Positions 18,656 to 37,503 of a stretch of 46,979 nt of DNA are shown here, piece after piece. Made by a program: the position numbers and the translations under genes. The stretch covers positions 1-46,979 of the forward strand of contig JAIESR010000073.1 of the NCBI GenBank assembly GCA_019745775.1, given 5' to 3'. Below the pieces are notes generated by a model. The model saw only the letters and a program-made list of their open reading frames with translations. It was not told where the DNA came from and did not search any database. The stretch's first letter is position 1, and the number at the start of each line of letters is the position of its first letter. The DNA comes from Xanthobacteraceae bacterium. Its GTDB lineage: Bacteria; Pseudomonadota; Alphaproteobacteria; Rhizobiales; Xanthobacteraceae.

Positions 18656-19699
18656 CTATTCCGCGATTGCTTTCGCCGCTTTGGCAACGATATCGGCGGG
18701 CGTCGAATAGATCTGCGCGAGCAATCCGTCGATCTGGCTGCCTGTCATGGGATCGATGTCCATCCGCAGCCTTGCGGCGTCGGCAAGGAGCTCAGGATCC
18801 TTCATCGTATGGTCGAATGCCCTGATCAGCGCCGCCTTGCGATCGGCGGGGATATCGGGGGGCGCGGCAAACGGCCGTCCCATCGCTTGCGGCGCGAAGT
18901 GCAAATAGAGAATCTGTTTCTTCTCAGGCTCCTTGACCAAGTCCATCGCGAACGGAACGTCCGGCAAGTCGGGATCGATCTTCAATCCCGCCTGGAGAAG
19001 AAAATTGACCATATTGCTTTTTCTCCATTGCGGGTGAGAAACCTTGACTGTGCCCCATGACAGCCCGCAGATTCCGTCGACTTCGCCTCTCTCCATGGCC
19101 AATGTAATCTCGGTCGTGCCTGGATAGCCGGAAACGATCCTAATCTGCGCCCCCAGAACATTCCTGTAGAGGCGCGCATAGATGTCGGAATCGGTACCAA
19201 CGGCTTGCCCTCCCATGATCGAGGGCCTTGTCAGCATGTCCTGCCATGTCTTGACTGAGGACTTTCCTCCGGTCAGGCAAAGGCTGGTTTCGCCCGACAT
19301 GCTTCCCAGCCAGCCGAATTTCCTTGCATCGAAGGTGCCGGGTGGCGTGAGCAGCGGTATCGTCGGAATACTGCGCGAGAAAGTCCCAATCACGGTGCCG
19401 TCCTTGGGCGCCGCCTCGTAAAGATAGTTCGTCACCCGCAGGCCGCCGGCGCCGGTCATACTCTGCGGAACGACCGTCGGCTGGCCGGGAATGTACTTGC
19501 CGAGATATTTGCTGAGAAGCCGGGCATAGAGATCGTATCCGCCGCCAGCGCTGTGCCCGATGACGACCCGCAGCGTCTTTCCCTTGTAGAACTGCTCCAC
19601 GTCGTCGGCGGACGCAGCCGACGCAGACATCTGAGGGACCGAAACTGCCAGGCACGTGATCAACGCGATTCCATACAAGCGACAAGGTCGACGATGCAT
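18656..19699 (-). CDS. TTT-family periplasmic receptor (module A)
   Basis: From the ATG at 19699 the product has 347 residues with a clean signal peptide (MHRRPCRLYGIALITCLAVS...SASA). The mature part begins VEQFYKGKTLRVVIGHSAGGGYDLYARLL, followed by HIPGQPTVVPQSMTGAGGL-like and APKDGTVIGTFSR segments, a long-branch subtype of the TTT/Bug receptors. The frame stays open upstream to a possible start at 19933 that overlaps the OCD gene stop (TGATG), but that 78-residue extension shows no family similarity and would bury the signal peptide. It ends the operon M20-OCD-receptor. A subtype relative lies at 32889. Confidence 0.88.
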   Translation of the reverse strand: MHRRPCRLYGIALITCLAVSVPQMSASAASADDVEQFYKGKTLRVVIGHSAGGGYDLYARLLSKYLGKYIPGQPTVVPQSMTGAGGLRVTNYLYEAAPKDGTVIGTFSRSIPTIPLLTPPGTFDARKFGWLGSMSGETSLCLTGGKSSVKTWQDMLTRPSIMGGQAVGTDSDIYARLYRNVLGAQIRIVSGYPGTTEITLAMERGEVDGICGLSWGTVKVSHPQWRKSNMVNFLLQAGLKIDPDLPDVPFAMDLVKEPEKKQILYLHFAPQAMGRPFAAPPDIPADRKAALIRAFDHTMKDPELLADAARLRMDIDPMTGSQIDGLLAQIYSTPADIVAKAAKAIAE

Positions 19700-19932
19700 T
19701 CGAATGCTCCGATCCGCGGCGATTTTGCTGGACATAGACGCATCAACCTCACGATCGGGAAGTTCGACGGCCGGAATTCGGCGGACTTGTGTGTTCGGTC
19801 GGCCGGCATGGCTTTCCAGACTGATCATGGATCCGATATTGTCGCGGTGACTGAACTGGCCGGCACCATGGATCCAGCCGCTCGGATCGCTCTGCATAAG
19901 TTCGGCAGCCATGTTTCTCGCGATCTCCAGCA

Positions 19933-20952
19933 TCAATCTTGCGGAGCAAAGCTCTGCTGTGCGACGGCCGTCGGCAATTCAATGCCGAAGCCCTTCGCCT
20001 TTGCCTCCTGATAGATACGCCAGCAGATCCCGATGTCGTGTGAGACCATGCCGGTCGTGTGAAGCAATATCCGTTCCATATCGGATTGCCGGCCCGGCTT
20101 TTGCCCGGCAACGACCTCTCCGATGTCGGCATGGAGCTGTGCGCGGCTGAACTCGCCGGCGTCGATCATGTTCCGGAATTCGCGGACGGTCATGTTGCAT
20201 TCCCAGTCGTCGATGACCACCTTGTCGAATTTCGACCAGCCGGCCGGGTCCATTTCCCGCCGCGCCAACGAAACAAAGGTTGCCCCCGGCTTGACCCAGT
20301 GCTCGCGGCTGACAATGTCGGTCGACGTCGTGCCGCCAATGGCGATATCCGCCCGCCGGACGACTTCCTCAATCGTATTGAGCGTCCGCACGGGGATTTT
20401 GAGCTTTTCGGACCACTTGCGTGCAAACGCCTCCCGCGTTTCCGGTCGGCGCGACGTGCAGACAATCTCTTCGAACCGGAAAAGCTGTGTCAGGCAGCGC
20501 AGACAATTCTCGCCCATGGTGCCAATACCCACGAGACCGAGCGTGCGCGGTGCTTTCGGAGCAAGCCATTTGAGTGCGACGATCGCGGCGGCGGCGCTGC
20601 GAATGGCATATGTCCAATGCTCGTCGACGATTGCGATCGGGTGAGCGGTCCTTGGATCCGAGAGGACGATATAGCGCGTGCAATCAAGCCGGCCGACAGT
20701 GTTGACCACGCCATCGTCGTAATAGGTGTAAAGCCGAACGCCCGAGATCGGCTCCTCCTTCAGGATCACCGTCTTGACATGCCAATGGTTGTGGAACGGC
20801 TCGCCGACATCGAGCTTTTGACTCGGTGGTACGGACCATGACACCGAGCCGCGGGCATGCATGGCGAACACGTCTTCACAAATCTGCATCGCCTGGGAAA
20901 CGGTCAACAGCTTCACGGTCGTCGCGTAGTCGATGAAAAGCACTGAGTTCAT
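19933..20952 (-). CDS. Ornithine cyclodeaminase/mu-crystallin family dehydrogenase (module A)
   Basis: This 339-residue enzyme is a close paralogue of the one at 27690; they share long blocks such as NHWHVK, YYDDGV-NTVG-LDCTRYI, VDEHW-YA-RSAAAA and GGTTS-DIVSRE. The nucleotide fold has GLVGIGTMG (GxGxxG), and the strand after it ends in CTSRRPETR; the SRR in place of an acidic residue suggests NADP(H). The family includes cyclodeaminases, alanine dehydrogenase, ketimine reductases and the opine-type oxidase SbnB, so the substrate cannot be assigned. It lies 39 bases downstream of the M20 gene. The pairing of an OCD enzyme with an M20 hydrolase and TTT receptor recurs in module B. Confidence 0.9.
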   Translation of the reverse strand: MNSVLFIDYATTVKLLTVSQAMQICEDVFAMHARGSVSWSVPPSQKLDVGEPFHNHWHVKTVILKEEPISGVRLYTYYDDGVVNTVGRLDCTRYIVLSDPRTAHPIAIVDEHWTYAIRSAAAAIVALKWLAPKAPRTLGLVGIGTMGENCLRCLTQLFRFEEIVCTSRRPETREAFARKWSEKLKIPVRTLNTIEEVVRRADIAIGGTTSTDIVSREHWVKPGATFVSLARREMDPAGWSKFDKVVIDDWECNMTVREFRNMIDAGEFSRAQLHADIGEVVAGQKPGRQSDMERILLHTTGMVSHDIGICWRIYQEAKAKGFGIELPTAVAQQSFAPQD

Positions 20953-20991: not shown

Positions 20992-22164
20992 TCAATTGCA
21001 GAGATATTCGCGGATAAGCCCGAAATAGGCGCGCGCACCGGATTGCAGTTCATCGACGGAGATGCGTTCGTCTTCGGAATGCCACTGATCCATGTCGCCC
21101 GGTCCCCACATCGTTGCCTCGGCGCCTTTGGCATGGAAGTAGCCGGCGTCCAAAGCGCCGTGACTGTAGAATGTCGGCGGCGAAGGCAGCTTGACGCCTT
21201 CGCAGCCTCTCCGGATCGCGCTCACGAGCGGGCCGTCGGGCGCCGCCTCGGCGGGATGCATGAAGGGTCCGAACGTGGTTTCGACCGACCAGGGCGATCC
21301 GATGTCTGCAGCAGCCGCCACTGCCGCAAACACCGCCTGCGGATCGTCCCCCGGCAATAGCCGGCGATCGAATACCAAGCGTACCTCGTCCTGCACCGTG
21401 TGCGTCGCCTCCGGCCATGACCGTATCGAGGTCGGGGTCAGCGTCGCCTGGCCCAGACCCGAATGCTTGTTGCTGCCGGCACCGAGCGCCAGCACCTTGT
21501 CGAGCACCCGCCGGGCGCCCTCGATCGCACTCACACCTGCCCATGGCGTGCTGCTGTGAGCGGCCTTTCCCTTGACCGTCACGATGATATCGATGCGTCC
21601 CTTGTTCGCCAACGCGACGCGATTTGTCGTCCCGATCACGACGACGGCGGCGCGGGGGATCGCCCCGACCGCAGCGCAAATGCTCTCGGCGGCATCGTGG
21701 CGGCCGGTTTCGCCGGCCGTGCTCACCGTGAAGACGAGGCTGCCGTTCAGCGTGAGGTTCGTCGCCGCGGCCTTTACGGCTCCTAGCGCAGCGGCGAGCG
21801 ATCCTTTCTGCTCAGATACGCCGCGTCCTCGTACGAACCGCGCCCCTCCGCTTTCGATGATCTCGCCCGCGAAGGGAGATTTCATGCGGTTCGTCGGATG
21901 CGTCATGGCATAGGCCATCAGCATAAGACTTCGATCGCCGCGCCGGGGCCCGATTTCGACGATGAGATTTCCCATTTCGTCGCGGCGAAAGGGCAGTTCC
22001 AGTTGCTTGACCAGCGGTGCGATGGTGTCGGCGATGAAGCTCTGGATCTGCGGCTCGCTCTCGAACAACTCGGTCTGCGGGCTCGGGTGGCGAACAAACG
22101 ATTGCGTCCAGTCGACAAGCCGCTGTTGCGAAATGCCGTAGGCGTCTACGACGTCATTGCTCAT
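20992..22164 (-). CDS. M20-family metallohydrolase with altered metal-site motifs (module A)
   Basis: This is a 390-residue protein starting at 22164, where GGAGGAC precedes the ATG; an in-frame ATG at 22188 lacks such a site. It has M20 architecture: an N-terminal catalytic part, an insert with GKAAHSSTPWAGVSAI, and a C-terminal GPGDMDQWHSEDE containing the last ligand histidine. However, the canonical GHxD motif is replaced by MAYAMTHP, the bridging aspartate of GRGxxDxKG is glutamate (GRGVSEQKG), and the EE pair reads AGETGRHD. The paralogue at 23420 has the same changes, so they mark a subfamily rather than decay. The role is probably amide hydrolysis; the metal use is open. Confidence 0.88.
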   Translation of the reverse strand: MSNDVVDAYGISQQRLVDWTQSFVRHPSPQTELFESEPQIQSFIADTIAPLVKQLELPFRRDEMGNLIVEIGPRRGDRSLMLMAYAMTHPTNRMKSPFAGEIIESGGARFVRGRGVSEQKGSLAAALGAVKAAATNLTLNGSLVFTVSTAGETGRHDAAESICAAVGAIPRAAVVVIGTTNRVALANKGRIDIIVTVKGKAAHSSTPWAGVSAIEGARRVLDKVLALGAGSNKHSGLGQATLTPTSIRSWPEATHTVQDEVRLVFDRRLLPGDDPQAVFAAVAAAADIGSPWSVETTFGPFMHPAEAAPDGPLVSAIRRGCEGVKLPSPPTFYSHGALDAGYFHAKGAEATMWGPGDMDQWHSEDERISVDELQSGARAYFGLIREYLCN

Positions 22165-22208
22165 CAGTCTTGTCCTCCGACGAACCACGGTACCCGGCCC
22201 AGGCGCGA

Positions 22209-22283: not shown

Positions 22284-22799
22284 ATGTCCGAAGCGTCTGA
22301 GACGATCGCCAGACAGATCGTGGAATCCACGGCCAAGTGCGGTATCACCACCATCGCAAGTCTACCGGACGGCTGGATCACTGACTTGATCACAGCCTAT
22401 GCTCGCGACAACCGCTTCAGGCACCTCGCGGTGAACCGGGAGGAAGCCGCAATCGGTTTCTGTTCGGGAGCATATCTCGGCGGTCTGGGCGCCATGGCAC
22501 TCATGGGAGCCTCGGGCTTTCTGACGTGTATCTACGCATTGACCAAAATCAACTACACTTACCAGATACCAATCCTCATCGGCATCACACTTCGCGGGCG
22601 CCCGGGAGATTCTGCGAAGTTTCATCAGTCCAACGGACTTTACCTCGATTCAATCATTCAAGCCATCGACATGCCTTTCATTCCCATCGAAAGGCGCGAG
22701 GACATTCCAAAGATCGGCGTCGCATATGCTCACAGTCGCACGATGACGCGACCCGTAGTGGTCGGGTTCACGCGCGAGCTGCTCCGGGGGCAAGCATGA
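22284..22799 (+). CDS. ThDP-dependent decarboxylase, alpha (pyrimidine-binding) subunit
   Basis: This is a 171-residue stand-alone PYR domain, like the alpha subunit (ComD) of sulfopyruvate decarboxylase or the N-terminal half of phosphonopyruvate decarboxylase. The ThDP-activating glutamate is in VNREEAAIGFCSGAYLGG (E53/E54), followed by ALMGASGFLTCIYALT and PILIGITLRGRPGD. The start at 22284 has an AAAGGAAA ribosome site. Its stop overlaps the beta-subunit start by four bases, as expected for a heteromeric enzyme. A 2-oxo acid is the likely substrate; which one is unknown. It is divergent from the M20-OCD-receptor operon. Confidence 0.9.
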   Translation: MSEASETIARQIVESTAKCGITTIASLPDGWITDLITAYARDNRFRHLAVNREEAAIGFCSGAYLGGLGAMALMGASGFLTCIYALTKINYTYQIPILIGITLRGRPGDSAKFHQSNGLYLDSIIQAIDMPFIPIERREDIPKIGVAYAHSRTMTRPVVVGFTRELLRGQA

Positions 22800-23398
22800 T
22801 GCATTTCGAAGATTGCTTCAGGCTCCTGCATGAGCGCCTGAAGACCGAACTCATCGTCACTTCGGCGGGAAACACCTCCGAGCTATGGTGGGAGATCAGC
22901 CGCGAGACCGAGCGCGTATTCTATCTCGAGGCATCGATGAGCCTGGCTTCGCTTTTCGCCGCCGGCATCGCGCTCGGGAATCCCGAGAAGACGATCGTGG
23001 CCTTCAACGGCGACGGCGCCTTCAACATGAATCCTGGAATGCTGTTTGCCGAAAGGCAGTTGGATCTGCCCAATCTCAAGCACTTCATGGTTTCGAACCG
23101 CTGTTACGGCTCCACCAACGAGCTCACCATGCCGTTCAGCCATTCGATCGACTATGCCGGGATGGCACGGGCAGCGGGGCTGTTGCGGGTCTATTCGCTG
23201 ACGAGCCTGGACGAACTCGACCGGCAACTCGACGACATCATCAAGGTGCCCGGACACACCTTTACCGTCCTGAATGTCGAGCCGCTCGGCCGCCACGCCG
23301 TATCGCCGCCGTTGGACGGCCCGGAGGTCAAGTTCCGGTTTGGCCGTTACCTGGAGCGAAACGGCGGTCGACGGATTTTCGACACTCCCCTCCCCTGA
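22796..23398 (+). CDS. ThDP-dependent decarboxylase, beta (diphosphate-binding) subunit
   Basis: This is a 200-residue stand-alone PP domain. The ThDP/Mg motif is complete: GDG at 72-74, 26 residues, then N101 (GDGAFNMN...SNRCYG). The segment YGSTNELTMPFS is typical of sulfopyruvate/phosphonopyruvate decarboxylase beta subunits. The ATG at 22796 overlaps the alpha-subunit stop; a second ATG follows immediately at 22799. Together the two subunits would make one active enzyme converting a 2-oxo acid to an aldehyde. The gene converges with the module B operon, only 21 bases from the M20 stop. Confidence 0.9.
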   Translation: MMHFEDCFRLLHERLKTELIVTSAGNTSELWWEISRETERVFYLEASMSLASLFAAGIALGNPEKTIVAFNGDGAFNMNPGMLFAERQLDLPNLKHFMVSNRCYGSTNELTMPFSHSIDYAGMARAAGLLRVYSLTSLDELDRQLDDIIKVPGHTFTVLNVEPLGRHAVSPPLDGPEVKFRFGRYLERNGGRRIFDTPLP

Positions 23399-23419: not shown

Positions 23420-24640
23420 TCACGTCAGATAATCCAACATCATGAAGGCAAAGACCCGCGCCGCATCCGTGGTGCGCTCGACCGACGCCATGTCGTAGTC
23501 GGTATGCGCCCATTGGTGCTCGCCGGCACCGAAATTGGCGGTCGGGATGCCGACGTGGTTGAGGTAGCCCTGGTCGAACGCCGATGGGGAGTAATAGGTT
23601 TCCGCCGCCTTGCCCAACATTACCTCGCTCCCCCGCAGCAGCGCCCGCACGATCGGCGAGTCGACCGTGACCAGCGACGGGTACATGAACGGCCCGAGCC
23701 GAAAATCGATGCCGAAGGTCTTGCCGCTGACCGGGTCCTTGACCGACTCGATCTCCTTGCCGATCCGTACCAGTTCCTCGAACGCTTCGTTCGGATCTTC
23801 GCCGGGCAGCAGGCGACGGTCGAGCCTGAATTCGCAGCGCTCCTGCACCGTGTGGGTTGAATCCGGAAAGCTGCGGATGTGATTGACGGTGAGCGACTGT
23901 TTGCCGAGTTGCGGGTGGCTCTTGTCGAGTTTTGTTTTGGTCAACAGCCGCTGAATCGCTTCCGTCGCGCCGGTGATCGCGTTGATGCCGTCCCATGGGC
24001 GGGCCGAATGGCAGGGCGCGCCTTTCACCGTGACGAATACGTCGATGCGGCCGCGGTTTCCGAGCGTGATCTTCAGACCCGTGCCGCCGAGCACGGCCAT
24101 GTCGGCGCGGACACCGGCGCCCTCGACCACGCTTTTGATGGCGTCGTGCTTGCCGGTTTCGCCTGACAGACAGCAGGTGAAGATCAGCTTGCCCGCGATC
24201 GGGACTTTGCTGGCGATGACCGTTTCCATCGCGTGCAGATAGGCCGCGAGATTGGCTTTCTGCTCGCTCGCGCCCTTGCCCATCACGCATTCGCCGGGCA
24301 GGTCGTATTTGGCGCCGTCGACCACATCGCCATTGTAGGGATTGGGCATGGTGGAGGCTGGCTGGTTCATGGCGTTGCCGATGAACATCAGCGACTTGCC
24401 GCTTGTGCCGGCGCCATAGGCCGCAATCAGATTGCCCATGGTGTCGTAGCGGACGTCGTCAAATCCCATGGCGCGCACGCGCGGCTCAATCGCCTTCTTG
24501 ATGAATTCCTTGAGCAGTGGCTCCTCTTCCAGGAGATCGGTCTGCGGACTCGGCACTTTCACCAGCTCGATCAGCAATTCCTTCGCGCGGTCGCGCGAGA
24601 GTTTCGCATCCAGAAGTTTCTTGATCTTGGACGCTTCCAT
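23420..24640 (-). CDS. M20-family metallohydrolase with altered metal-site motifs (module B)
   Basis: This 406-residue paralogue of the M20 protein at 20992 aligns along its whole length (VPSPQTDLLEEEP, MGNLI, SIRSxPxxTHTVQ-like, RRLLPGEDP, GPFMYPS). The same substitutions occur: GNAMNQPASTM in place of GHxD, KGASEQKAN in place of GRGxxDxKG, and SGETGKHD in place of the EE pair. The insert histidine (CHSARPWDGINAI) and the C-terminal histidine (GEHQWAHTDYD) remain. It is the last gene of the module B operon, 14 bases after tctA. The shared changes suggest a distinct chemistry or a single-metal site within M20. Confidence 0.9.
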   Translation of the reverse strand: MEASKIKKLLDAKLSRDRAKELLIELVKVPSPQTDLLEEEPLLKEFIKKAIEPRVRAMGFDDVRYDTMGNLIAAYGAGTSGKSLMFIGNAMNQPASTMPNPYNGDVVDGAKYDLPGECVMGKGASEQKANLAAYLHAMETVIASKVPIAGKLIFTCCLSGETGKHDAIKSVVEGAGVRADMAVLGGTGLKITLGNRGRIDVFVTVKGAPCHSARPWDGINAITGATEAIQRLLTKTKLDKSHPQLGKQSLTVNHIRSFPDSTHTVQERCEFRLDRRLLPGEDPNEAFEELVRIGKEIESVKDPVSGKTFGIDFRLGPFMYPSLVTVDSPIVRALLRGSEVMLGKAAETYYSPSAFDQGYLNHVGIPTANFGAGEHQWAHTDYDMASVERTTDAARVFAFMMLDYLT

Positions 24641-24653: not shown

Positions 24654-26144
24654 CTATGTGACCTCGGCGCCGCCCTTGCCGACGCGCTTCTTGACGCCGG
24701 GCCACAGCACCAGCACGATGCAGATGGCGAAGATCGTAGCCGACAGGGGGCGCAGCACGAACACCGAATAGTCGTGATTGGAGATCTGCAGCGCCTGGTG
24801 GAACGCGCCTTCGGCGAGCTTGCCGAGGATCAGTCCGATCACCAGACTGATCAACGGATAGCCATGCCGCCTGGCGAAATATCCGAACAAGCCGAACCCG
24901 ATCGCGACGAACACGTCCATCATGTTGCGCTCGTTGGCGTAGGCGCCGAACAGCGTGATGATCAGCAGGATGGGCGCCATCAGTTCGATGCGCACCAGCG
25001 TGACCAGGGCGAACCAGGGAATCATGATGAGATACAGAATCGTCGCCATGATGCACCCGATCAAAAGCCCCATGTAGAAGCCCCAGATCAGCTCGGGATT
25101 CGACGTGAACAGCATCGGCCCGGGCCGCAGTCCCTGCACGGTCACCGCCACCAGCAGGATCGCTGCCGTAGCGCCGCCCGGAATGCCGAGTGTGAGCGCC
25201 GGTATGAGGCTCGTCGGAATGCAGGAATTGTTGGACGCCTCCGGTGCGATCACGCCTTCCGGCGCGCCCTTGCCGAACTGTTCCGGATGTTTCGATGTCC
25301 GCTTCGCCACGCTATAGGCGAGGAAATTTGCGGCCGTCGCACCGAGTCCTGGAATGATGCCGATAAACGCGCCGAGCATCGTGCTCTGCGTCAGCGCAAA
25401 GGGATATTTGAACGTGCCGATGAATCCGTCCCACAAGGAACCTTGGAGCTTGCCGGATTTCGCGATCGTCCCGCCCTCGATGATCATCGTGATCAGCTCC
25501 GTGATCGCGAACAGTCCGACCATCACGGGTACGAAGCTTATCCCGTCGAGCAGATAGACGTAGCCGAACGTGTAACGCTCCGTTCCGAGAATTGAATCGA
25601 CACCGATCAGACTGATCGCAATGCCGAACGCGCCCATGGCCAGCCCCTTCACGGTCGAACCAAGCGCGGCGACCGACACCACCGTCAGCCCGAGAATCGC
25701 GAGCGCGAAATATTCCGCCGGGCTGAAGGCGAGCGCGACCTTCGTTACGGGGCCTGAGACAAACATCAGGATCAAGACGCCGACGATGCCTGCCACCATC
25801 GAAGCGCCGGCGGAGAGGCCCATCGCGACCTTGGCCTTGCCCTGCTGCGCCATCGGGTAGCCGTCATAGGCGGTGGCGGCGGAGGAGGCTTCGCCGGGGA
25901 TGTTGAGCAGGATCGAGGTGATCGACCCTCCGAAAGCCGCGCCGACGGAAATCGAGGCGAGCATCAAGAGCGCCGAGAGCGGATCCATGGTGAAGGTGAA
26001 CGGGATCAGGATCGCCATCGCCACCGGGCCGCCAAGGCCCGGCAGCACGCCAACCCACAGCCCGATCACGGTACCGGCGACCATGAACAGGAACTGCTTC
26101 CACTGCAGCGCGGCCATCAGCCCGAGGATAAGGTTGTCGAACAT
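24654..26144 (-). CDS. tctA: TctA-family large permease subunit of a tripartite tricarboxylate transporter
   Basis: The protein has about 496 residues with roughly a dozen membrane segments. Family landmarks include GVLPGLGGPVAMAILIPFTF, a glycine-rich SISVGAAFGGSITSILLNIPGEA, AYDGYPMAQQGKA, the second repeat AFIGIIPGLGATAANFLAYSVAKR and GVIAPEASNNS-IPTSLIPALTLGIPGG. The ATG at 26144 is preferred over one at 26162, which would overlap tctB; this leaves a 7-base gap. With TctB and a receptor it forms a sodium- or proton-coupled uptake system. It is the only TctA in the window, although five intact or broken receptor genes are present. Confidence 0.95.
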   Translation of the reverse strand: MFDNLILGLMAALQWKQFLFMVAGTVIGLWVGVLPGLGGPVAMAILIPFTFTMDPLSALLMLASISVGAAFGGSITSILLNIPGEASSAATAYDGYPMAQQGKAKVAMGLSAGASMVAGIVGVLILMFVSGPVTKVALAFSPAEYFALAILGLTVVSVAALGSTVKGLAMGAFGIAISLIGVDSILGTERYTFGYVYLLDGISFVPVMVGLFAITELITMIIEGGTIAKSGKLQGSLWDGFIGTFKYPFALTQSTMLGAFIGIIPGLGATAANFLAYSVAKRTSKHPEQFGKGAPEGVIAPEASNNSCIPTSLIPALTLGIPGGATAAILLVAVTVQGLRPGPMLFTSNPELIWGFYMGLLIGCIMATILYLIMIPWFALVTLVRIELMAPILLIITLFGAYANERNMMDVFVAIGFGLFGYFARRHGYPLISLVIGLILGKLAEGAFHQALQISNHDYSVFVLRPLSATIFAICIVLVLWPGVKKRVGKGGAEVT

Positions 26145-26151
26145 GGCCGCC

Positions 26152-26661
26152 TCAGTGGGCACGCAGGTTGTCGATCAGCCAGTCGCCCACGACGCCGTGC
26201 GGCAGATTGACGCCCACGAGGTAGGGAAAGAAAAGGGCGAGGAACGCCACCGTCGCAAGTCCCACGGCGAACGTCATGCGGCGGTTCGCGTAGCCCATCA
26301 GCGGCGGCATCACGAACATTGCGGCGAGCGAAGCGACAAAGAAACCGAACAGCCAAAACACGACGCCGAATGCAGGCGCCGACAACAGCGCGGTCGCGAA
26401 CCGCGGCCAGTTCGCGTTGGCGGCCGGATCGTCGTCGTCGACGGTGTCGGCCGCCGCGCTCGTCGCGCGCCGGCGCAATTCTTGGACGAGGATGGCAAGG
26501 CAGAGCAGAATTCCGGCGGTGCCGATCACCCAGGGGAACAGCCGCGCATCGAACGGCAGCCGAATGGAAAAAACCAGGATGGCACCGAAAAAAAACAGCA
26601 GCGCGGCGATCAGAGCAAACTCTTCGCGCCAGTAGTTCCTCACCCTTGAATCGGTTTTCAT
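26152..26661 (-). CDS. tctB: TctB-family small permease subunit
   Basis: This 169-residue protein has four predicted membrane segments (about 16-35, 42-60, 92-122 and 130-152) separated by a hydrophilic loop rich in Asp and Ala (TVDDDDPAANA). This is the usual form of TctB, the poorly conserved small membrane subunit. It sits between tctA (7 bases) and the receptor gene (17 bases) in transcriptional order receptor-TctB-TctA. Confidence 0.9.
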   Translation of the reverse strand: MKTDSRVRNYWREEFALIAALLFFFGAILVFSIRLPFDARLFPWVIGTAGILLCLAILVQELRRRATSAAADTVDDDDPAANANWPRFATALLSAPAFGVVFWLFGFFVASLAAMFVMPPLMGYANRRMTFAVGLATVAFLALFFPYLVGVNLPHGVVGDWLIDNLRAH

Positions 26662-29153: not shown

Positions 29154-29202
29154 AGCGTAGTCGGAGCACCGCAGGGACTCAAGTACAGGCCGCATCGCGC
29201 TT

Positions 29203-30375
29203 ATGCATATTATCAACCGCATCGCCGCCTTTCACGTCGAGATGACGGCCTGGCGGCGCGACTTACACGCGCATCCGGAAACCGCATTCGAGGAGCGGCG
29301 CACCGCGGCGCTAGTCGCTCAGAAGCTGCGCGGCTGGGGCATCGAGGTGCACGAGGGCCTCGCCAAGACCGGCGTGGTCGGAACGCTACGCTGCGGGAAC
29401 GGAGCGCGCGCCATTGGCCTGCGTGCCGATATGGACGCGTTGCCGATGGAAGAGCTCAACGACTTCGCGCATCGCTCCAGAGTGCCGGGCCGATTCCATG
29501 GTTGCGGTCACGACGGCCACACCTCGATGCTGCTCGGCGCGGCGCGCTATCTCGCCGAGGCGCGCAATTTCGACGGCACCGTGCACTTCATCTTCCAGCC
29601 TGCCGAGGAGAACGTTGCCGGCGCGGGCGTCATGGTACGCGAGGGTTTGTTCGAGATGTTTCCGATGGCGGCCGTGTACGGCATGCACAATCGTCCAAAT
29701 CTGCCAAAGGGCGAATTCGCGATGCGTGCCGGACCGGCGCTCGCCTGTGCGGACAATTTCGGCATCACGATCCACGGGCGCGGCACGCACGCGGCTTGGC
29801 CGCACCTCGGCATCGACATCGTCGTGGTTGCATCGCAGATAGTGCTCGCGCTTCAGACGATCGTCAGCCGCCAAATCTCGCCGCTGGACTCGGCCGTGGT
29901 CAGCACCACGATGATCCATGGCGGTTCGAGCGACAATGTCATTCCCGATGAAATCCGCCTACGCGGCACCGCGCGATCGTTTCTGCCCGCCGTACAGGAC
30001 AGGATCGAGGCAAGACTGCGCGAGATTGCGCGCGCGACCGCGGCGATGCACGGCGCCACGGCCGAAGTGGAATATGAGCGGCGCTACCCGTCGCTGCACA
30101 ACGACGCCGAGCGCATTGCGGTCTGCGCAGACGTGGCGCGTGGGATCGTGGGCGCCGAGAACGTCGACGTCGATCACGAGCCCGGCATGGGCTCCGACGA
30201 TTTCTCGTTCATGTCGAACCGCGTGCCGGGCGGCTATGTCTGGATCGGCTCCGGACCGGCCGAGGCCGGCGGTTTCCTGCACAACCCCCGCTACGACTTC
30301 AACGACGATATTCTGCCTATCGGCGCGAGCTATTGGGCACGACTCGTCGAAGCCGAGCTCCCGCGAAGGACCTAA
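29203..30375 (+). CDS. M20D amidohydrolase (hippurate hydrolase/aminoacylase-like)
   Basis: The protein has 390 residues. The M20D hallmarks are intact: LRADMDALPMEE, FHGCGHDGHTSMLLGAA (metal ligands C and H), FQPAEEN (catalytic and metal glutamates), HNRPNLPKGEFA, and C-terminal MGSDDFSFM with HN. Relatives remove acyl groups from N-acyl amino acids such as hippurate or indole-acetyl conjugates. It is the first gene of a + operon with another M20 peptidase, a 2OG/Fe(II) oxygenase and a TTT receptor. The neighbours suggest that the natural substrate is an imported amide-linked acid. Confidence 0.93.
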   Translation: MHIINRIAAFHVEMTAWRRDLHAHPETAFEERRTAALVAQKLRGWGIEVHEGLAKTGVVGTLRCGNGARAIGLRADMDALPMEELNDFAHRSRVPGRFHGCGHDGHTSMLLGAARYLAEARNFDGTVHFIFQPAEENVAGAGVMVREGLFEMFPMAAVYGMHNRPNLPKGEFAMRAGPALACADNFGITIHGRGTHAAWPHLGIDIVVVASQIVLALQTIVSRQISPLDSAVVSTTMIHGGSSDNVIPDEIRLRGTARSFLPAVQDRIEARLREIARATAAMHGATAEVEYERRYPSLHNDAERIAVCADVARGIVGAENVDVDHEPGMGSDDFSFMSNRVPGGYVWIGSGPAEAGGFLHNPRYDFNDDILPIGASYWARLVEAELPRRT

Positions 30376-30380
30376 GTCCC

Positions 30381-31787
30381 ATGTCCCGGGCCGGTGCCAT
30401 CGCACGCGCTCACGCCTATTTTGACGACGGCACGTTCGTTTCCGACTTGCGGCGGCGGGTCGCCATCCCGAGCTCGAGCCAGGAGCCTGAGCGCGCCGCG
30501 GTGCTGCGCACCTACCTCGATGACGAGATCGTCCCCTCGCTTGTGCCGCTCGGCTTCATATGCCGGGTGTTTGACAATCCCACCGGCGCCGCACCGCCCC
30601 TGCTCGTCGCCGAGCGCATCGAAGATTCAAGACTCGTCACCGTGCTGGTCTACGGCCACGGCGACACCATCCGCGGCCTCGACGATCTCTGGCGCGAGGG
30701 CCTTTCGCCCTGGTCGATCGTGGTCGAGGGCGACCGGATCTACGGGCGCGGCACGGCCGACAACAAGGGCCAACACTCGGTGAACATCGGCGCGATCGCG
30801 GCGGTGCTCAAGGAGCGGGGCCGGCTCGGATTCAACGTGAAGTTCCTGATCGAGATGAGCGAGGAATACGGCTCGGTCGGCTTGCGCGAGTTCTGCGAAC
30901 AGCACAAGGACGGCGCGCTGAAGGCCGACCTGCTGATCGCCTCCGACGGACCGCGGATCGCACCCGACCGGCCCACGATGTTCCTCGGGGCGCGCGGCGC
31001 CCACCTCATCGATATGATCGTCGACTTCCGCGAGGGCGGCCACCATTCGGGCAACTGGGGCGGGCTCCTCGCCAATCCCGGCATCGTGCTGGCACAGGCG
31101 ATCGCCTGCATCACCGACGCGCAGGGGGCGATCAAGGTGCCGGAATGGCGGCCGCCGCTGCCGCAGTCGGTGCGGCGCGTGCTGCAGGGTGTCGAGGTTG
31201 ATGCCGGCCAGGATGGCCCCGCGATCGATCACGACTGGGGCGAGCCGGATTTGACCTCCGCCGAGCGTGTGTTCGGCTGGAACAGCTTCGAGGTGCTCGC
31301 CTTCACGACCGGCACGCCCGAGCGACCGGTCAACGCCATCCCCGGCAAGGCGCGCGCCCATTGCCAGCTCCGCTACGTGGTCGGCACCGACGTCGATGAC
31401 ATCATTCCGGCGCTACGACGCCATCTCGACCGTCACGGGTTCCAGAAAGTCGAGTTGCGCCGCGGCCAGGGGGGGTTCTTTCCAGCCAGCCGGCTCGATC
31501 CGGCCGATCCGTGGGTCACCTGGACGGCCGCCTCGCTCGAACGGACGGCCGGGCACGCGCCGACGATCCTGCCGAACCTCGGGGGCTCGCTACCCAATGA
31601 CATCTTTATCGACGTGCTCGGCCTGAAGACGATCTGGGTGCCGCATTCCTACGCCGGCTGCTCGCAGCACGCGCCCAACGAGCATCTCCTCGCCTCTATC
31701 GCGCGTGAAGGACTTGGCCTGATGGCCGGACTTTTCTGGGATCTGGGCGACCCGGCCACGCATGCGCGTCGAAATTCCTCCCCGTGA
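30381..31787 (+). CDS. M20-family metallopeptidase with canonical metal site
   Basis: The 468-residue protein starts at 30381, five bases after the M20D stop; an in-frame upstream ATG at 30333 lies inside that gene. All M20 motifs are standard, in contrast to the two proteins at 20992 and 23420: VYGHGDTIRG, GRGTADNKGQH, EMSEEYGS, ASDGPR, GGHHSGNWGG and the C-terminal GCSQHAPNE. It resembles the carnosinase/ArgE-DapE side of M20. Its stop overlaps a possible GTG start of the next gene. Two M20 enzymes in one operon suggest two sequential deacylation or peptide-bond cleavage steps, which is inferred. Confidence 0.92.
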   Translation: MSRAGAIARAHAYFDDGTFVSDLRRRVAIPSSSQEPERAAVLRTYLDDEIVPSLVPLGFICRVFDNPTGAAPPLLVAERIEDSRLVTVLVYGHGDTIRGLDDLWREGLSPWSIVVEGDRIYGRGTADNKGQHSVNIGAIAAVLKERGRLGFNVKFLIEMSEEYGSVGLREFCEQHKDGALKADLLIASDGPRIAPDRPTMFLGARGAHLIDMIVDFREGGHHSGNWGGLLANPGIVLAQAIACITDAQGAIKVPEWRPPLPQSVRRVLQGVEVDAGQDGPAIDHDWGEPDLTSAERVFGWNSFEVLAFTTGTPERPVNAIPGKARAHCQLRYVVGTDVDDIIPALRRHLDRHGFQKVELRRGQGGFFPASRLDPADPWVTWTAASLERTAGHAPTILPNLGGSLPNDIFIDVLGLKTIWVPHSYAGCSQHAPNEHLLASIAREGLGLMAGLFWDLGDPATHARRNSSP

Positions 31788-31843
31788 AGAGCCTTTCTGC
31801 TAGATTGCGATCTGCGCTTGAACGCATGGACGGAGGCGATCCG

Positions 31844-32878
31844 ATGCCATACACAGCCGCCGGGGTGCTCGCCGAAGATGAGATCCCCATTCTTGATCTC
31901 GGCCCCTATCTGGCCAACGAACAAGATGCGCTGGATCGTCTCGGCCGTCAGCTCTATCGTGCATCCACCGAAGTTGGATTCTACTACCTGAAAAACCATG
32001 GTATTGCGCAATCCTTGATCGACCAGACCTTCAGGGAGGCGAAGCGGTTCCACGCGCTTCCGCTGGAGGAGAAGCGGAAGATCAAGGTCGATCAGAACAA
32101 GATCGGTTATTTCGAACCGGAGTCGACCATCACCCGGCATTCGAACCTGGCGAACGGCGCCAAGCCCAATCTCTACGCGGCATTCTGCATGCGCCGCGAG
32201 CTTCCGCCGGACGATCCGGACATCCTGGCAGGCGTGCCCTATCGCGCGCTCAACCGCTGGCCTGAAAATCTGCCCGGTTTTCGCGAGAACATGGTGGCCT
32301 TTTCGGAAGCGATGGAAGCACTCGGAAAGAGACTGCTGCCGATCTTGGCCCAGGCGCTCAATCTGAGGCCCGACTTCTTTGACAAGGACTTCGAGAAGCC
32401 CCTGGTGAACATGCAGCTCAACTACTATCCCCACCAGCCGAATTTCGACGGAGCGCAGTTCGGACTGGCACCGCATACCGACCGCGGGTTCATTACCATG
32501 TTGTGCCAAGCCCAGATTCCCGGCCTGGAGATTCGGACCGCCGACGGCCGATGGGTGGTTGCGCCGATCTTGCCGGGGCACATTCTCGTCAACACCGGCG
32601 ACCTGCTGCGGCACTGGACCAACGACGTCTTCCTGTCTACGCCGCACCGGGTGACCAACTTGTCGGGCGACGAGCGGCTCTCCATCCCGTTTTTCTACAA
32701 GCCGGACCTGAACACCCTGATCGAGTGCATTCCGACCTGCCAAAGCCCGGAGCGACCCGCGAAATATCCTCCCGTCACCGTCCTTGAATTCTATGACTGG
32801 TTCGTCAAACAGAATTATCCTGAAGTCGTCGCGGCGCAGAGCAAGCAGAAGGCGCAGCATCTTGCAGCGAACGAGTGA
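31844..32878 (+). CDS. 2-oxoglutarate/Fe(II)-dependent oxygenase, isopenicillin N synthase-like
   Basis: This is a 344-residue protein from the ATG at 31844, chosen because GGAGG lies seven bases before it; alternative starts are GTG at 31784 and ATG at 31826. The N-terminal non-heme dioxygenase region (IPILDLGPYL, VGFYYLKNHGI) precedes a 2OG-Fe(II) domain with the iron ligands H211, D213 (APHTDRGFITML) and H268 (STPHRV) and the 2-oxoglutarate arginine R278 (RLSIPFF). All key residues are present. Members hydroxylate, desaturate or cyclise small molecules, and the substrate here is unknown. In this operon it probably oxidises the imported compound or a deacylated product. Confidence 0.92.
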   Translation: MPYTAAGVLAEDEIPILDLGPYLANEQDALDRLGRQLYRASTEVGFYYLKNHGIAQSLIDQTFREAKRFHALPLEEKRKIKVDQNKIGYFEPESTITRHSNLANGAKPNLYAAFCMRRELPPDDPDILAGVPYRALNRWPENLPGFRENMVAFSEAMEALGKRLLPILAQALNLRPDFFDKDFEKPLVNMQLNYYPHQPNFDGAQFGLAPHTDRGFITMLCQAQIPGLEIRTADGRWVVAPILPGHILVNTGDLLRHWTNDVFLSTPHRVTNLSGDERLSIPFFYKPDLNTLIECIPTCQSPERPAKYPPVTVLEFYDWFVKQNYPEVVAAQSKQKAQHLAANE

Positions 32879-32888: not shown

Positions 32889-33944
32889 ATGACACGACGT
32901 TTCGCGACGATTGTCCTGCTGGCGGCGATCACGGCTGTTGCCGCCCTGGCCCCGTCCCCGATTTTTGCGCAAGATGCAGCGTCGTCCGATGTCGCAAGTT
33001 TTTATCGCGGCAAACAGATGCGCATCATCATTCGCTCCGGGCCCGGCGGCGGTTTCGATCTCTATTCACGACTGTTGGCGCGTTTCATCGTCAAACACAT
33101 CCCGGGCAACCCCACGATGGTTGCGCAGAACATGCCTGCCGGTGGCGGGCTTGCTGCGATCAGCTATGTCGCCGAGGTCGCGCCGCAAGATGGGACAGTT
33201 GTGACCATGATTGGTCAATCGCTCCCATTCGACCAGGCATTGGGCTACACACCGAGCTTCAAGCAGGATCTGCGAACGTTCCACTGGATCGGCAACCTGA
33301 GCGATTCGAACATTCTGACCTACACGTGGCACACGCGCGGAATCAGGAGCATGGATGATGCGCGCACGCGTGAAGCCTCGCTCGGCTCGACCGGCGCCGG
33401 CGACGTGGGATCGTGGTTGCCGAGCCTGTACAACAGCGTGCTTGGCACGAAATTCAAGATCATCAACGGGTACCAGGGATTTGCCGAAGTGAAGCTGGCG
33501 ATGGAGCGCGGCGAAATCGACGGCTTTGGCGCAAATCCATTGGCATCGATCCTGTCGACACAGCCTCAGCTCATTCGAGACAGGCTCATCTCGATTCTCG
33601 TGCAAGTCGGCCTGCGAAAGGAGAAGGAGCTACCCGACACGCCGCTCCTGACGGAGCTCGCACGCACCGACGACGAGCGCGAGCTGCTCGGGTTTGTCAC
33701 CAAGGCGATGTCCGTCGGACGACCGATCGGCGTCGGACCCGGCGTTCCCTCGGACCGTGTCGAGGCCCTGCGCAAGGCGTTCGACGCTACGCTGGTCGAT
33801 CCCGAGTTTATAGCGGAAGCGAAAAGATCGAGAATGGACATCGGCCCGATGAACGGAGCTACTGTTCAGCGCCTTGTTGAGGAGGTGCAGAGTGCCCCCG
33901 TCGACTTGCGAACCAGGGTGCGGGCCTTGATGCCTCCGCGCTGA
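32889..33944 (+). CDS. TTT-family periplasmic receptor (module C)
   Basis: This 351-residue receptor begins at 32889 with a signal peptide (MTRRFATIVLLAAITAVAAL...IFAQ). The mature part starts VASFYRGKQMRIIIRSGPGGGFDLYSRLL and continues HIPGNPTMVAQNMPAGGGL and APQDGTVVTMIGQ, the same subtype as the protein at 18656. The C-terminus (EALRKAFDATLVDPEFIAEAKRSRMDIGPMNG) is the region matched by the remnant at 35515. It ends the module C operon, ten bases after the oxygenase gene. No permease gene is beside it. Confidence 0.92.
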   Translation: MTRRFATIVLLAAITAVAALAPSPIFAQDAASSDVASFYRGKQMRIIIRSGPGGGFDLYSRLLARFIVKHIPGNPTMVAQNMPAGGGLAAISYVAEVAPQDGTVVTMIGQSLPFDQALGYTPSFKQDLRTFHWIGNLSDSNILTYTWHTRGIRSMDDARTREASLGSTGAGDVGSWLPSLYNSVLGTKFKIINGYQGFAEVKLAMERGEIDGFGANPLASILSTQPQLIRDRLISILVQVGLRKEKELPDTPLLTELARTDDERELLGFVTKAMSVGRPIGVGPGVPSDRVEALRKAFDATLVDPEFIAEAKRSRMDIGPMNGATVQRLVEEVQSAPVDLRTRVRALMPPR

Positions 33945-34158: not shown

Positions 34159-34190
34159 GGCTCGTGCTTCGGCTTCGGTCGTCACGAGCC
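34159..34190. terminator. Stem-loop between convergent genes, overlapping the monooxygenase stop
   Basis: An inverted repeat with 8-base arms, GGCTCGTG at 34159-34166 and CACGAGCC at 34183-34190, encloses a 16-base loop. It overlaps the stop codon of the minus-strand monooxygenase. Reading +, a TTTTT run follows about 10 bases later, so it might end the module C transcript. A clean U-tract directly after the stem is missing, so the terminator call is weak. The rest of 33945-34181 shows no gene. Confidence 0.35.
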
Positions 34191-35507
34191 ACCATGCGTT
34201 TTTGAATACCGGTTGACCGGCACCGGCAAGCCGAGATGCTCGCGCAACGTACGTCCCGCATAGTCCAGGCGGAAGATGCCACGCCTTTGCAGCTCAGGTA
34301 CGACCTGATCAATGAACTCATCAAAGGCGGCGGGGAAGTAGGGAGGCACAAGTACAAAGCCATCGCAGGCGCGATCGACAAACCATTCTTCCATCACATC
34401 AGCGATCGTCGGTGCGTCCCCATATGCAAAAAGGTAACCTCGGGCCACGGCGATCTGATTGTAGATATCCCGCAGCGTCAGATTGTCCTTGCGAGCCTTC
34501 TCATAGGCAACCTTCGCATGGGTTTGAATTGAGTTCGACAGCGGCAGCTCCGGTACTGGACCATCCAGATCAAACCCGGACATGTCGTGCCCGAACCGGC
34601 TCGACATCATCTTCAAGGCAACCGCAGGGACCGCGAGACGCATCAGCTCCGAAAGCTTCTTTCGCGCGTCCTCTTCATTTTGGCCGACGATCGGCATGAA
34701 ACCAGGAAGAATTTTGCAGTGGTCCGGATTGCGGCCCCAGCTAGCAACCATGGCCTTCATCGTCGCGTAGAATTCCTTGGCATGCTCCTTGTCCAGCTGA
34801 GCCGCAAAAATCATTTCCGCGAACCGTGACGCAAACTTTTTGCCGTCATCCGAGGCTCCCGCCTGCACGAGTACCGGTTGGCCTTGCGGCGTGCGCGTCA
34901 CATTGAGCGGCCCACGCACTGAATAGAATTTGCCGACGTGGTCGAGCGAATGCACTTTCGTCTTGTCGAAATATTCGCCGGTTTCCGCATTGGTCGTTAT
35001 TGCGCCTTCCTCCCAGCTGTCCCAGAGACCCTGTACGACTTCGACAAATTCCGTGGCAGATTCATACCGGGTGGCATGGTCCATCGGGCCGGCGCTGCCG
35101 AAGTTCCCAGCCGCTTCTGGCATCCCCGAGGTCACCATATTCCACCCCGCGCGACCGCCGCTGAGCTTATCGAGCGACGCAAACACTCGGGCGATGTTGA
35201 ACGGCGACGAATATGTGGTCGAGGCCGTGGCGACGAGTCCCACCCTCGTTGTCTGCGTGGCCAGCGCCGCATGCAAGGTGAGCGGCTCGAATCTCAGCAT
35301 TTGGCCTGGGTGCCGGTCCGGTACAAAAGCGAGACTGTCGCCGACGAACAGGAAGTCGAGCTTTCCTCGTTCGCACGATTCTGCGATCGTCTTGAAGATC
35401 GAAAAGTCCTCGCTGCTGGTGGCTGCTCCCGGGACCCGCCAGCCGGACACATGGTTCCCCGTCCCCACGGCGTACACGCCGAGATTCATTTGCCTGCCGG
35501 GATTCAT
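34182..35507 (-). CDS. Flavin-dependent monooxygenase, NtaA/SnaA/DszA type (LLM class)
   Basis: From the ATG at 35507 the product has 441 residues, the usual size for the NtaA/DmoA/SnaA branch; an ATG at 35489 is an alternative. The longer frame to 35618 runs through the receptor remnant and is rejected. Signature segments are VSGWRVPGA, AESCERGKLDFLFVGDSLAF, LRFEPLTLHAALATQTTRVGLVATASTTYSSPFNIARVFASLD, GRAGWNMVTS and RGPLNVTRTPQGQPVLVQAGAS. These enzymes use reduced FMN to oxidise N- or S-linked alkyl compounds such as nitrilotriacetate, EDTA or sulfones. The flavin reductase partner is not in the window. It is last in the module D unit. Confidence 0.92.
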   Translation of the reverse strand: MNPGRQMNLGVYAVGTGNHVSGWRVPGAATSSEDFSIFKTIAESCERGKLDFLFVGDSLAFVPDRHPGQMLRFEPLTLHAALATQTTRVGLVATASTTYSSPFNIARVFASLDKLSGGRAGWNMVTSGMPEAAGNFGSAGPMDHATRYESATEFVEVVQGLWDSWEEGAITTNAETGEYFDKTKVHSLDHVGKFYSVRGPLNVTRTPQGQPVLVQAGASDDGKKFASRFAEMIFAAQLDKEHAKEFYATMKAMVASWGRNPDHCKILPGFMPIVGQNEEDARKKLSELMRLAVPAVALKMMSSRFGHDMSGFDLDGPVPELPLSNSIQTHAKVAYEKARKDNLTLRDIYNQIAVARGYLFAYGDAPTIADVMEEWFVDRACDGFVLVPPYFPAAFDEFIDQVVPELQRRGIFRLDYAGRTLREHLGLPVPVNRYSKTHGGS

Positions 35508-35514: not shown

Positions 35515-35784
35515 TTAGTCCTCTTGAGACAAGACGTCAGACATCTGATCGCGCGCCAAACCCATCGTGCTGCGGGCGGTATCGAAGACATCTTGCGGGA
35601 TGCGATAGAGTTCGGCAATCAGCGAATCGAGCTTCGCGCCATCGATCGGATTGACGATCAATCCATTGCGCCTGGTCTCGGCCAGGAATCCGCGAACGCG
35701 CATCGTGTCGTCGGATGCTTGGCGCAGCGCCGAATTCCGGTGGTCAGGCAGTCCGGCTCCTGCCGCCGGCTCATGATTGCGGCG
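35515..35784 (-). pseudogene. C-terminal remnant of a TTT-family receptor
   Basis: The frame directly after the stop of the ThDP gene (TGA at 35785-35787) is open for about 90 codons to a TAA at 35515. From about 35750 onward it matches the C-terminus of TTT receptors: ALRQASDDTMRVRGFLAETRRNGLIVNPIDGAKLDSLIAEL corresponds to the ALRKAFDATL-DPEFIAEAKR-...-NGATVQRLVEE stretch of the receptor at 32889. The signal peptide and about 250 residues are missing. The remnant marks a deletion between the ThDP gene and the monooxygenase gene, so module D once carried its own receptor. Confidence 0.8.
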
Positions 35785-37503
35785 TCAGTTTGATGGGCGT
35801 TGGACGCCAGGATCGGGCAGCACGACGTTGAGAATTGCAGGCTTGCCTGCCTCGATCGAGGCCAATGCAGTTTTGACCGCGCCCCTCAGTTCGCCCGGGT
35901 GCTCGATCAACTGACCATACCCGCCGACAACTGCTGCAGCCTGCTCATAGCGAGAATTGTTGATGTGCACGCCGTAATAGTCTTTGGTCGTGATCGCGGT
36001 GCCTTTCGGATAGAATCGATTATGCAGCCGCTCCATGACCGCGTATTTCTTGTTGTTGCAGACGATGATCAGTAACGGGAGCTTGTATTCGTCTGAAACT
36101 GCGAGTGCGGGAATGACCGGGTTATATAGGAACGAACCATCGCCGATCGTGATCACCACTGGACGTTGGGGGAGCGCCAGTTTCACTCCGAGCGCATAGC
36201 CCAAACCTTGACCCAGGCCACTCGGCGCTCGGAAGTAGCCATGCGGCTCATCCCAAATAATGTGGTCGCGAATTTCGCCGGCATGAACGATTGTCTCGTC
36301 TACATAGGTCGTATCCGCCGGCATCACCTCGCGGAGCGTCTTCATCAACAACGGTATTGTGATCTGATCGTTCGCATTGGCCTTCTCCTCGGCGACGGTG
36401 ATCCCGTCTCGCCACTTCTTATGTTCGGCTTGCCAGCGTTCTCGACGCTCAGCAAGCGCGGCTGGGTCGAGATCAAGCCTGCGCAACGCTTCCGTCAGCA
36501 GCCGAAGGGTGATGGCGATATTGCCTTCGAGATAATGACTCGCCTCCATGATCTGATAGACCATGTTGACTTTGAGCGGGTTCTCGCTGACCGACACAAT
36601 CCGTGCATTTTTGGGAGTGTTGCTTGGCGGATACCACGGCGCCCAGCTATCGACGAGTAGCGCGAGATCCATTTCGTTCAACAGCGGTTCGATCTTTGCG
36701 CCGAGGTAAAGCTCATTTGATTTCGGAAAATTGGCGAAGAAAGCGCCCTGCCCCTCGACCACCGGGATCGCTGCCGCCTCGGCAAGCTCCACCAGGGCGT
36801 CGAACGCCTCGGGGTCGGGGCCCGCCGTCAAGGCAGAGATCACCGGGCATTTTGCCTCGGCGATCAATGCCGCAACCTTTTCGATATCGGCCGCCGTTGG
36901 TCGTGTCTGCGGCGCCGGCGGGACCTTGCGAAGCACTTCCGGCTTGAGCCAGTCGCGCAACATGGTCTCCATGGAGACGCAGACGTATGTCGGCCCTTTC
37001 GGATTACGCTGCGCCAATTCGCCGGCGCGGATGACAGTTTGGTAAAGCGTCTCGGCACCCGGAGCCTGTTGCGCCCATTTCACAACCGGCTCCAGCAGAC
37101 GCTGCGGCCCGCCAACGACGCTGAGATTGCGATACCATTGCGAACCCGGGTCGAAATCGGTCTCGCCGTAGGTCGACGATTCACCCGACATCACCAGCAT
37201 CGGCGTTTCCATCGCACGAGCCGCGCCGACGGCCATCGAACCCTGCAGCAGACCCGCTCCGGCGTGCAACATTACCGCCTGCATCCGGCCGGTGATGCTC
37301 GTGTATGCGTTGGCCATGGCGACGGCGATCGTCTCATGACCGCAATCCAAATAAATTGGGCCCGGCGTTCCGTCGCGCTTTTGCCGCGCTACCGCCTCCC
37401 AGAACGGCGGCCACTCGGATCCGGGCGAGCAGATAATATAGTCGATACTCAGGTTCCGGAACGCCTCGAGGATAGCTTCGCCACCGTCATGATAATTCGT
37501 CAA
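35785..37503 (-). CDS. ThDP-dependent enzyme, acetolactate synthase/2-oxo acid decarboxylase family
   Basis: The 572-residue protein has the usual three-domain order: PYR domain with the activating glutamate E57 (DCGHETIAVAMANAY), a central domain, and a PP domain with GDG (454-456), 26 residues and NN (483-484). This is the full canonical ThDP motif. It differs from biosynthetic acetolactate synthase in many places, and no regulatory subunit gene adjoins it. A catabolic 2-oxo acid decarboxylase, carboligase or hydrolase is possible. It is the first gene of module D, with a perfect palindrome 62 bases upstream. Functionally it parallels the split ThDP enzyme of module A. Confidence 0.9.
   Translation of the reverse strand: MTNYHDGGEAILEAFRNLSIDYIICSPGSEWPPFWEAVARQKRDGTPGPIYLDCGHETIAVAMANAYTSITGRMQAVMLHAGAGLLQGSMAVGAARAMETPMLVMSGESSTYGETDFDPGSQWYRNLSVVGGPQRLLEPVVKWAQQAPGAETLYQTVIRAGELAQRNPKGPTYVCVSMETMLRDWLKPEVLRKVPPAPQTRPTAADIEKVAALIAEAKCPVISALTAGPDPEAFDALVELAEAAAIPVVEGQGAFFANFPKSNELYLGAKIEPLLNEMDLALLVDSWAPWYPPSNTPKNARIVSVSENPLKVNMVYQIMEASHYLEGNIAITLRLLTEALRRLDLDPAALAERRERWQAEHKKWRDGITVAEEKANANDQITIPLLMKTLREVMPADTTYVDETIVHAGEIRDHIIWDEPHGYFRAPSGLGQGLGYALGVKLALPQRPVVITIGDGSFLYNPVIPALAVSDEYKLPLLIIVCNNKKYAVMERLHNRFYPKGTAITTKDYYGVHINNSRYEQAAAVVGGYGQLIEHPGELRGAVKTALASIEAGKPAILNVVLPDPGVQRPSN

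Follow-up and report, generated by a model that had tools for sequence, protein, structure and literature searches.

Described M20 and OCD systems related to the locus

Deacylases of the DapE/ArgE type (CgDapE, 3tx8; 7uoi) and YgeY belong to the M20 family, and imine reductases and alanine dehydrogenase of the ornithine cyclodeaminase/mu-crystallin (OCD) family are represented in the Protein Data Bank (PDB) by 6t3e, 1omo, 4m54 (SbnB) and 6rqa (BhcD). Ectoine utilisation combines both families with a transporter, EutC being an OCD member and DoeB2 an M20 protein. In this study, we analyzed contig JAIESR010000073.1 (46,979 nucleotides, hereafter the window) from a Xanthobacteraceae bacterium (assembly GCA_019745775.1), in which an island at positions 18,656 to 37,503 encodes two OCD proteins (OCD1 and OCD2), four M20 proteins (M20a to M20d), a complete tripartite tricarboxylate transporter (TctA, TctB and TctC all matched) and enzymes dependent on thiamine diphosphate (ThDP). 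The island is like ectoine utilisation in its OCD, M20 and transporter logic; however, window proteins match the EutC and DoeB2 models below cut-off (for EutC, TIGR02992, 114 and 91 bits for the OCDs against 471.65), and no other Eut or Doe genes were seen in the scans made of the window. A route of the arginine dehydrogenase/2-ketoarginine decarboxylase type offers a further comparison. On a Pararhizobium plasmid, an M20 gene is next to that of a ThDP-dependent 5-guanidino-2-oxopentanoate decarboxylase; this M20 protein is canonical, unlike M20a and M20b, and the adjacent oxidoreductase has an FAD-binding annotation.

We found that the island is a genuine catabolic unit, conserved in part, in which one M20 branch has been remodelled; it is undescribed as far as our searches show. 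Among the titles and opening parts of abstracts that our searches of an open-licence library listed, none dealt with this gene set, in agreement with the initial annotation, which knew of no described pathway for it, and none with an M20 branch lacking the residues discussed below. We see about an even chance that the genes make up an island for uptake and catabolism, in which the recurring core consists of a small cupin, an OCD and a type-b altered M20 protein, with M20a, OCD1 and a receptor as a second row.

Altered M20 proteins

M20a and M20b are 36% identical and fall in the M20 family (Peptidase_M20, 63 and 27.8 bits, cut-off 24.6; M20_dimer, 53.3 and 51.3 bits, cut-off 21), and both stayed below the cut-offs of the YgeY model (109 and 143 bits against 321) and the DapE-ArgE model (109 and 107 bits against 217.6). 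Their residues were compared by HMMER alignment to DapE-type structures and against M20 proteins of the canonical kind, with roles (metal ligands, general base) assigned to the positions after DapE work. Neither protein had the full metal-ligand set and general-base Glu. M20a and M20b share the dimerisation His, the second Glu of the EE pair and the C-terminal His with DapE/ArgE deacylases and YgeY, but lack the first His, its partner Asp, the general-base Glu and the Glu of the EP motif, and the bridging Asp is replaced by Glu.

The alignment of altered proteins comprised 16 rows, two from the window and 14 loci (genomes and loci are given below by our G and L handles). The His of GHxD was Tyr or Asn in 15 of the 16 and was kept in L047 alone; in all 16 rows, the Asp position of this motif was Met, the bridging Asp was Glu (EQK), the EE pair was GE within GE[TS]G[KR]HDA, the EP Glu was gone and the dimerisation His was retained. 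The C-terminal His was retained in 15/15 rows, L038 being truncated. Nine rows were assigned to subtype a and seven to subtype b, a split defined post hoc from the alignment. Six more M20 loci from a second bacterial family showed the same EQK, GETG[KR]HDA and NAM motifs, and a C-terminal search pattern matched five of them (L070 was unmatched), whereas a plasmid protein used as contrast (L033, 27% identity) was canonical. Two Roseivivax/Roseovarius plasmids (L031 and L032) carried subtype-a proteins, and the cultured Roseivivax sp. THAF30 is one such carrier; no altered-M20 relative was found in the viral collection. By annotation, the neighbours of the two plasmid M20 genes include a TRAP transporter, xanthine dehydrogenase, dihydroorotate dehydrogenase, asparaginase and amidohydrolase.

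The retained residues correspond to those of one metal site: the Glu in place of the bridging Asp, one Glu and the C-terminal His. Judged from their sequences, M20a and M20b look like a remodelled M20 subfamily that has lost one zinc-ligand set and the general base. Amide cleavage, which the initial annotation ascribed to the M20 enzymes, is doubtful for M20a and M20b because of these losses; any amide hydrolysis would fall to M20c and M20d, in which canonical motifs were read by eye, and with these two the proposed step could still take place. Having gained GE[TS]G[KR]HDA and kept residues equivalent to one site, M20a and M20b may be enzymes that use a single metal for new chemistry, or else binding partners within this pathway. 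A more specific idea, possible and put forward tentatively, is that the binuclear zinc site was rebuilt to give a new catalyst (one or no metal, with EQK, GE[TS]G[KR]HDA, THT and the C-terminal His), which would act with a dedicated OCD and cupin in an undescribed degradation of a nitrogen-containing acid. Routine annotation labels M20 proteins as metallo-hydrolases. The altered branch is conserved and bears this label on public plasmids, but its members should not be assumed to be hydrolytic.

Co-occurrence of OCD and type-b M20

A class-level sample of 385 genomes, including the genome of the window, was searched with one profile for the altered M20 proteins (A4, E 1e-50) and one for the OCDs (A5, E 1e-70), with the same genome handles for both. 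A5 was built with second-family OCDs and A4 without any second-family M20, and the large searches scored the top four to six candidates per genome. Altered M20 was detected in eight genomes and OCD in six, and the six OCD genomes (G000, G423, G476, G528, G617 and G694) were exactly the six carriers of type-b M20; both genomes with M20 alone (G335 and G535) carried type a. A rough hypergeometric estimate, in which kin genomes are non-independent and the typing is post hoc, was 2.9e-7 for type b counted by genus with the own genus excluded; for any altered M20 it was 2.9e-6, again rough and with related genomes non-independent. In the second family, to which G423, G528, G617 and G694 belong, 11 of 13 genomes had OCD and 10 had M20, all of type b, with both in 10; G705 had OCD only, and G707 and G709 had neither. 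Among eight genomes of the own genus, searched with queries and E cut-offs that differed between searches, four had both, G001 only OCD, G005 only M20, and G002 and G007 neither. Altered M20 was found in 2/297 genomes of an order sample, and both profiles matched the own genome only in a phylum sample of 398.

In one distant genome from another family (G476), the genes are neighbours, with OCD-RidA on one strand, cupin-M20b on the other and TRAP genes nearby. The M20 gene after this OCD looks canonical by eye, and BLAST ties it to no window M20. Through its match to one OCD subfamily, the altered M20 branch has a definite partner, and the pair is a unit that can be tested in the search for the substrate. 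Scattered modules that never co-occur, the outcome named in the initial annotation as fatal to its island, were not what we observed, as the link between OCD and altered M20 recurs; the proposed conserved set of OCD, altered M20 and split ThDP enzyme held for the first two, and split ThDP genes lay near OCD in the window alone.

OCD oxidoreductases

OCD1 and OCD2 are paralogues with 64% identity, and their family membership is given by the Pfam cut-off and by fold. Their best PDB matches are the imine reductases and alanine dehydrogenase named above, from which they differ by an identity of only about 20-26% and by a conserved NHWHVK stretch of their own; no listed NCBIfam OCD model reached its own cut-off on either protein. 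A structure model built from 10 rows (mean pLDDT 82.4) gave pyrroline-2-carboxylate reductase, alanine dehydrogenase and SbnB as the first Foldseek matches, with Pseudomonas putida ornithine cyclodeaminase at rank 30, and the A5 profile gave the same closest matches by sequence. A RidA-type gene adjoins OCD in seven related loci (L018-L023 and L059), so that the simplest reading is an imine product. This fits the OCD oxidation step proposed in the initial annotation. Within the named genome collection, the subfamily occurred in metagenome-assembled genomes only (8/8 loci), and among plasmids no relative of OCD2 was found at either 1e-60 or 1e-35.

Taken together with the transporter, the pathway may begin with uptake of a nitrogen-containing carboxylic acid by the tripartite tricarboxylate system, and OCD would act as an NAD(P)-dependent imine/amino-acid oxidoreductase, its imine product probably being hydrolyzed by RidA in lineages with RidA beside OCD.

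Neighbourhoods in related genomes

Within the own genus, linkage extends from the cupin and OCD2 to M20d and M20a. G004 carries OCD2-cupin and M20d-M20a on one contig; in G006, one contig carries M20a-M20d and a cupin, and a second contig carries cupin-OCD2. At contig ends, G003 has one-piece ThDP-M20d and cupin-OCD2-TctC-TctB-TctA, with TctA-M20b on a separate contig, and G001 has one-piece ThDP-M20d and cupin-OCD2. G005 has M20a beside a one-piece ThDP gene. M20d is divergent from the cupin within the genus, and in G003 and G004 it appeared as two BLAST pieces in different frames. The cupin lies near OCD in five same-genus genomes (own counted), G476 and L018-L023. The last six loci, some with marine record titles, contain a cupin, a second cupin, RidA and OCD, and a TctA gene lies upstream at a distance of about 6-8 kb; L018 also has UbiD (Pfam) and an EutA-like gene.

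Transporter genes near OCD were of the TctA type in L018-L023 and L034, of the TRAP type in L016 and L059, and a receptor in L063. The receptor follows the second OCD copy of G617 and is 43% identical to the window receptor RecA. In L016, TRAP and receptor genes lie within 6 kb of OCD, which is directly beside a luciferase-family gene (133 bits with the NtaA-type model, cut-off 279.7). OCD1 grouped in a tree with second OCD copies, the G423 OCD and L016 (support 92/94, below the starred level). This grouping and the comparison of neighbourhoods suggest that two older arrangements were brought together in the window. A 30-residue match to M20d (87%; L016:4153-4242, minus strand) on the same OCD contig, which has no full M20d, is a possible remnant. 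Ring or aromatic chemistry, considered because of second-family contexts (Rieske subunits and nitrile hydratase by eye; UbiD in L018), was not used as proof.

ThDP enzymes

The split ThDP enzyme stayed below the cut-offs of the sulfopyruvate/phosphonopyruvate decarboxylase models of NCBIfam (83.5/147.95, 80.4/221.5 and 79.6/312.5 bits). Homologues of its beta half (51-56% identity) were found in G423, G528, G617, G694 and G005 among 16 chosen genomes. The split-ThDP stretches of the first four held neither OCD nor altered M20 (L087 by tblastn), that of G005 held no OCD, G476 had no split ThDP near OCD, and plasmids had no beta relative at 1e-25. A RidA-like gene follows the beta homologue in G005. 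The second-family split-ThDP loci L084-L086 lie near a regulator-like gene (by eye) and a gene with 25-28% identity to carbamoylase-type M20.

The one-piece ThDP gene that G001 and G003 carry near OCD, and G005 near M20a, differs from that of the window (ThDP1). It occurred in 12/13 genomes checked, including G002, G005 and G007, in which OCD was not detected, and the own genome has it at a different position; it was dropped as a specific partner. The decarboxylation proposed in the initial annotation is weakly supported and stays conjecture because split-ThDP stretches elsewhere hold no OCD and the one-piece enzyme also occurs in genomes in which OCD was not detected.

Alternative explanations

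The initial annotation read the island as a linear route of tripartite uptake, amide cleavage by M20 enzymes including M20a and M20b, OCD oxidation and ThDP-dependent decarboxylation of a 2-oxo acid. All these gene classes do lie together, a one-piece ThDP gene adjoins M20d or M20a in three same-genus genomes, and beta homologues of the split enzyme occur in four OCD-carrying second-family genomes. However, the general base and Zn1 ligands are lost in M20a and M20b, and the distribution of both ThDP enzymes described above argues against a fixed decarboxylation step, so that the full route is rather unlikely; what stands of it is uptake and catabolism with a recurring link between OCD and altered M20. 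If OCD were instead reductive or cyclising (like SbnB, pyrroline-2-carboxylate reductase or ornithine cyclodeaminase), the cluster would be biosynthetic, as reductases among its closest folds might suggest, but transporter genes near OCD in many loci, RidA in seven and the NCBIfam models that stayed below cut-off make this very improbable.

It is also conceivable, although unlikely, that only the row cupin-OCD2-TctCBA-M20b is a unit and the rest is a chance pile-up in a large genome. More genes of the OCD family occur elsewhere in the own genome, and the island is flanked by genes for uracil catabolism and other catabolic functions. For its right part (31.8-37.5 kb), a comparison at 1e-15 and 40% coverage with 30 stretches, some of them lacking OCD and several being short contigs, gave no homologue of the 2-oxoglutarate (2OG) oxygenase, NtaA or ThDP1; in the same stretches, the only close relative of M20c was on plasmid L031, without OCD. 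Against a chance pile-up stand the linkage of M20d and M20a to the cupin and OCD2 in the genus and the OCD-receptor order that recurs in G617. Several observations also weigh against the catabolic uptake island as we see it. Only the window and G476 have type-b M20 and OCD together on one stretch of a contig; second-family genomes have them at loci far apart or on separate contigs. OCD was detected without M20 in G001 and G705, and altered M20 without OCD in G005, in fragmented genomes (completeness 84, 71 and 90, respectively). No RidA gene lies within the window, and the OCD stretches L064 (G528) and L066 (G423) have no receptor after OCD. Finally, an AlphaFold model of M20b from two rows had a mean pLDDT of 44.6 and was unused, so that a site formed by the retained residues is only putative.

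Gene inventory of the island

Pfam, NCBIfam and BLAST confirmed all gene classes named in the initial annotation, including a receptor remnant of 66 amino acids (aa) (Table 1). By contrast, its four modules in one repeated order were not found: receptor, OCD and altered M20 come together twice, in different arrangements, and 29.2-37.5 kb has no OCD.

Table 1. Genes of the island in the window (ORF, open reading frame)
Gene	Product	Positions	Strand	Remarks
RecA	TctC-like receptor	18656-19699	-	ORF open to 19936; start near 19699 by eye at signal peptide
OCD1	OCD/mu-crystallin oxidoreductase	19933-20952	-	Pfam PF02423, 132.7 bits (cut-off 24)
M20a	altered M20, subtype a	20992-22188	-	Pfam M20 and M20_dimer
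ThDP alpha	alpha half of split ThDP enzyme	22284-22799	+	start set at MSEASE; TIGR03845, 83.5 bits, below cut-off 147.95
ThDP beta	beta half of split ThDP enzyme	22796-23398	+	PF02775 (TPP_enzyme_C); 4-base overlap with alpha
M20b	altered M20, subtype b	23420-24640	-	Pfam M20_dimer and M20
TctA	transporter subunit	24654-26162	-	PF01970, 462.9 bits
TctB	transporter subunit	26152-26661	-	PF07331, 42.1 bits
TctC	receptor	26679-27686	-	PF03401, 90.7 bits
OCD2	OCD/mu-crystallin oxidoreductase	27690-28691	-	PF02423, 131.9 bits
Cupin	small cupin	28732-29169	-	PF07883
M20c	canonical amidohydrolase-type M20	29203-30375	+	TIGR01891, 365.6 bits (cut-off 153.75)
M20d	canonical M20, PRK07079 subfamily	30381-31787	+	NF005478, 726.9 bits (cut-off 330)
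2OG	2OG/Fe(II) oxygenase	31784-32878	+	PF14226, PF03171
RecB	TctC-like receptor	32889-33944	+	start at MTRRFA by eye; 38% to RecA
NtaA	NtaA/DmoA monooxygenase	34182-35489	-	ORF open to 35618, start by eye; TIGR03860, 516.4 bits (cut-off 279.7)
Remnant	receptor C-terminal remnant	35563-35760	-	66 aa, 35% to RecB, E 1.9e-7
ThDP1	one-piece ThDP enzyme	35785-37503	-	TPP_enzyme_N, M, C

Six genes form the first minus-strand row, cupin-OCD2-TctC-TctB-TctA-M20b (29169 to 23420), and overlap or lie at most about 40 bases apart. M20a-OCD1-RecA is the second minus-strand row, and the two ThDP halves are placed between both rows on the plus strand. M20c-M20d-2OG-RecB forms a plus-strand row. RecA and RecB had no match in the Pfam scan and resemble an L016 relative that matches TctC.

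Flanking genes

Uracil phosphoribosyltransferase, DUF1688 and GTP cyclohydrolase II-like genes stand in a row at 15169-18368, which we take to be the URC uracil-catabolism set. A DUF1688 match lies about 6 kb from OCD2 in G006, and a link to uracil catabolism was considered. At 7985-11108, a NamZ exo-muramidase gene is beside a DcaP-type porin gene, with an OppF-like ATPase close by, possibly for muropeptide recycling. On the other side, a minus-strand frame at 37504-38168 looks by eye like an insertion-sequence helix-turn-helix protein, and 39266-46979 encodes a LuxR regulator, HlyD, an ABC exporter and a long RTX-repeat protein, which resembles a type I secretion set.

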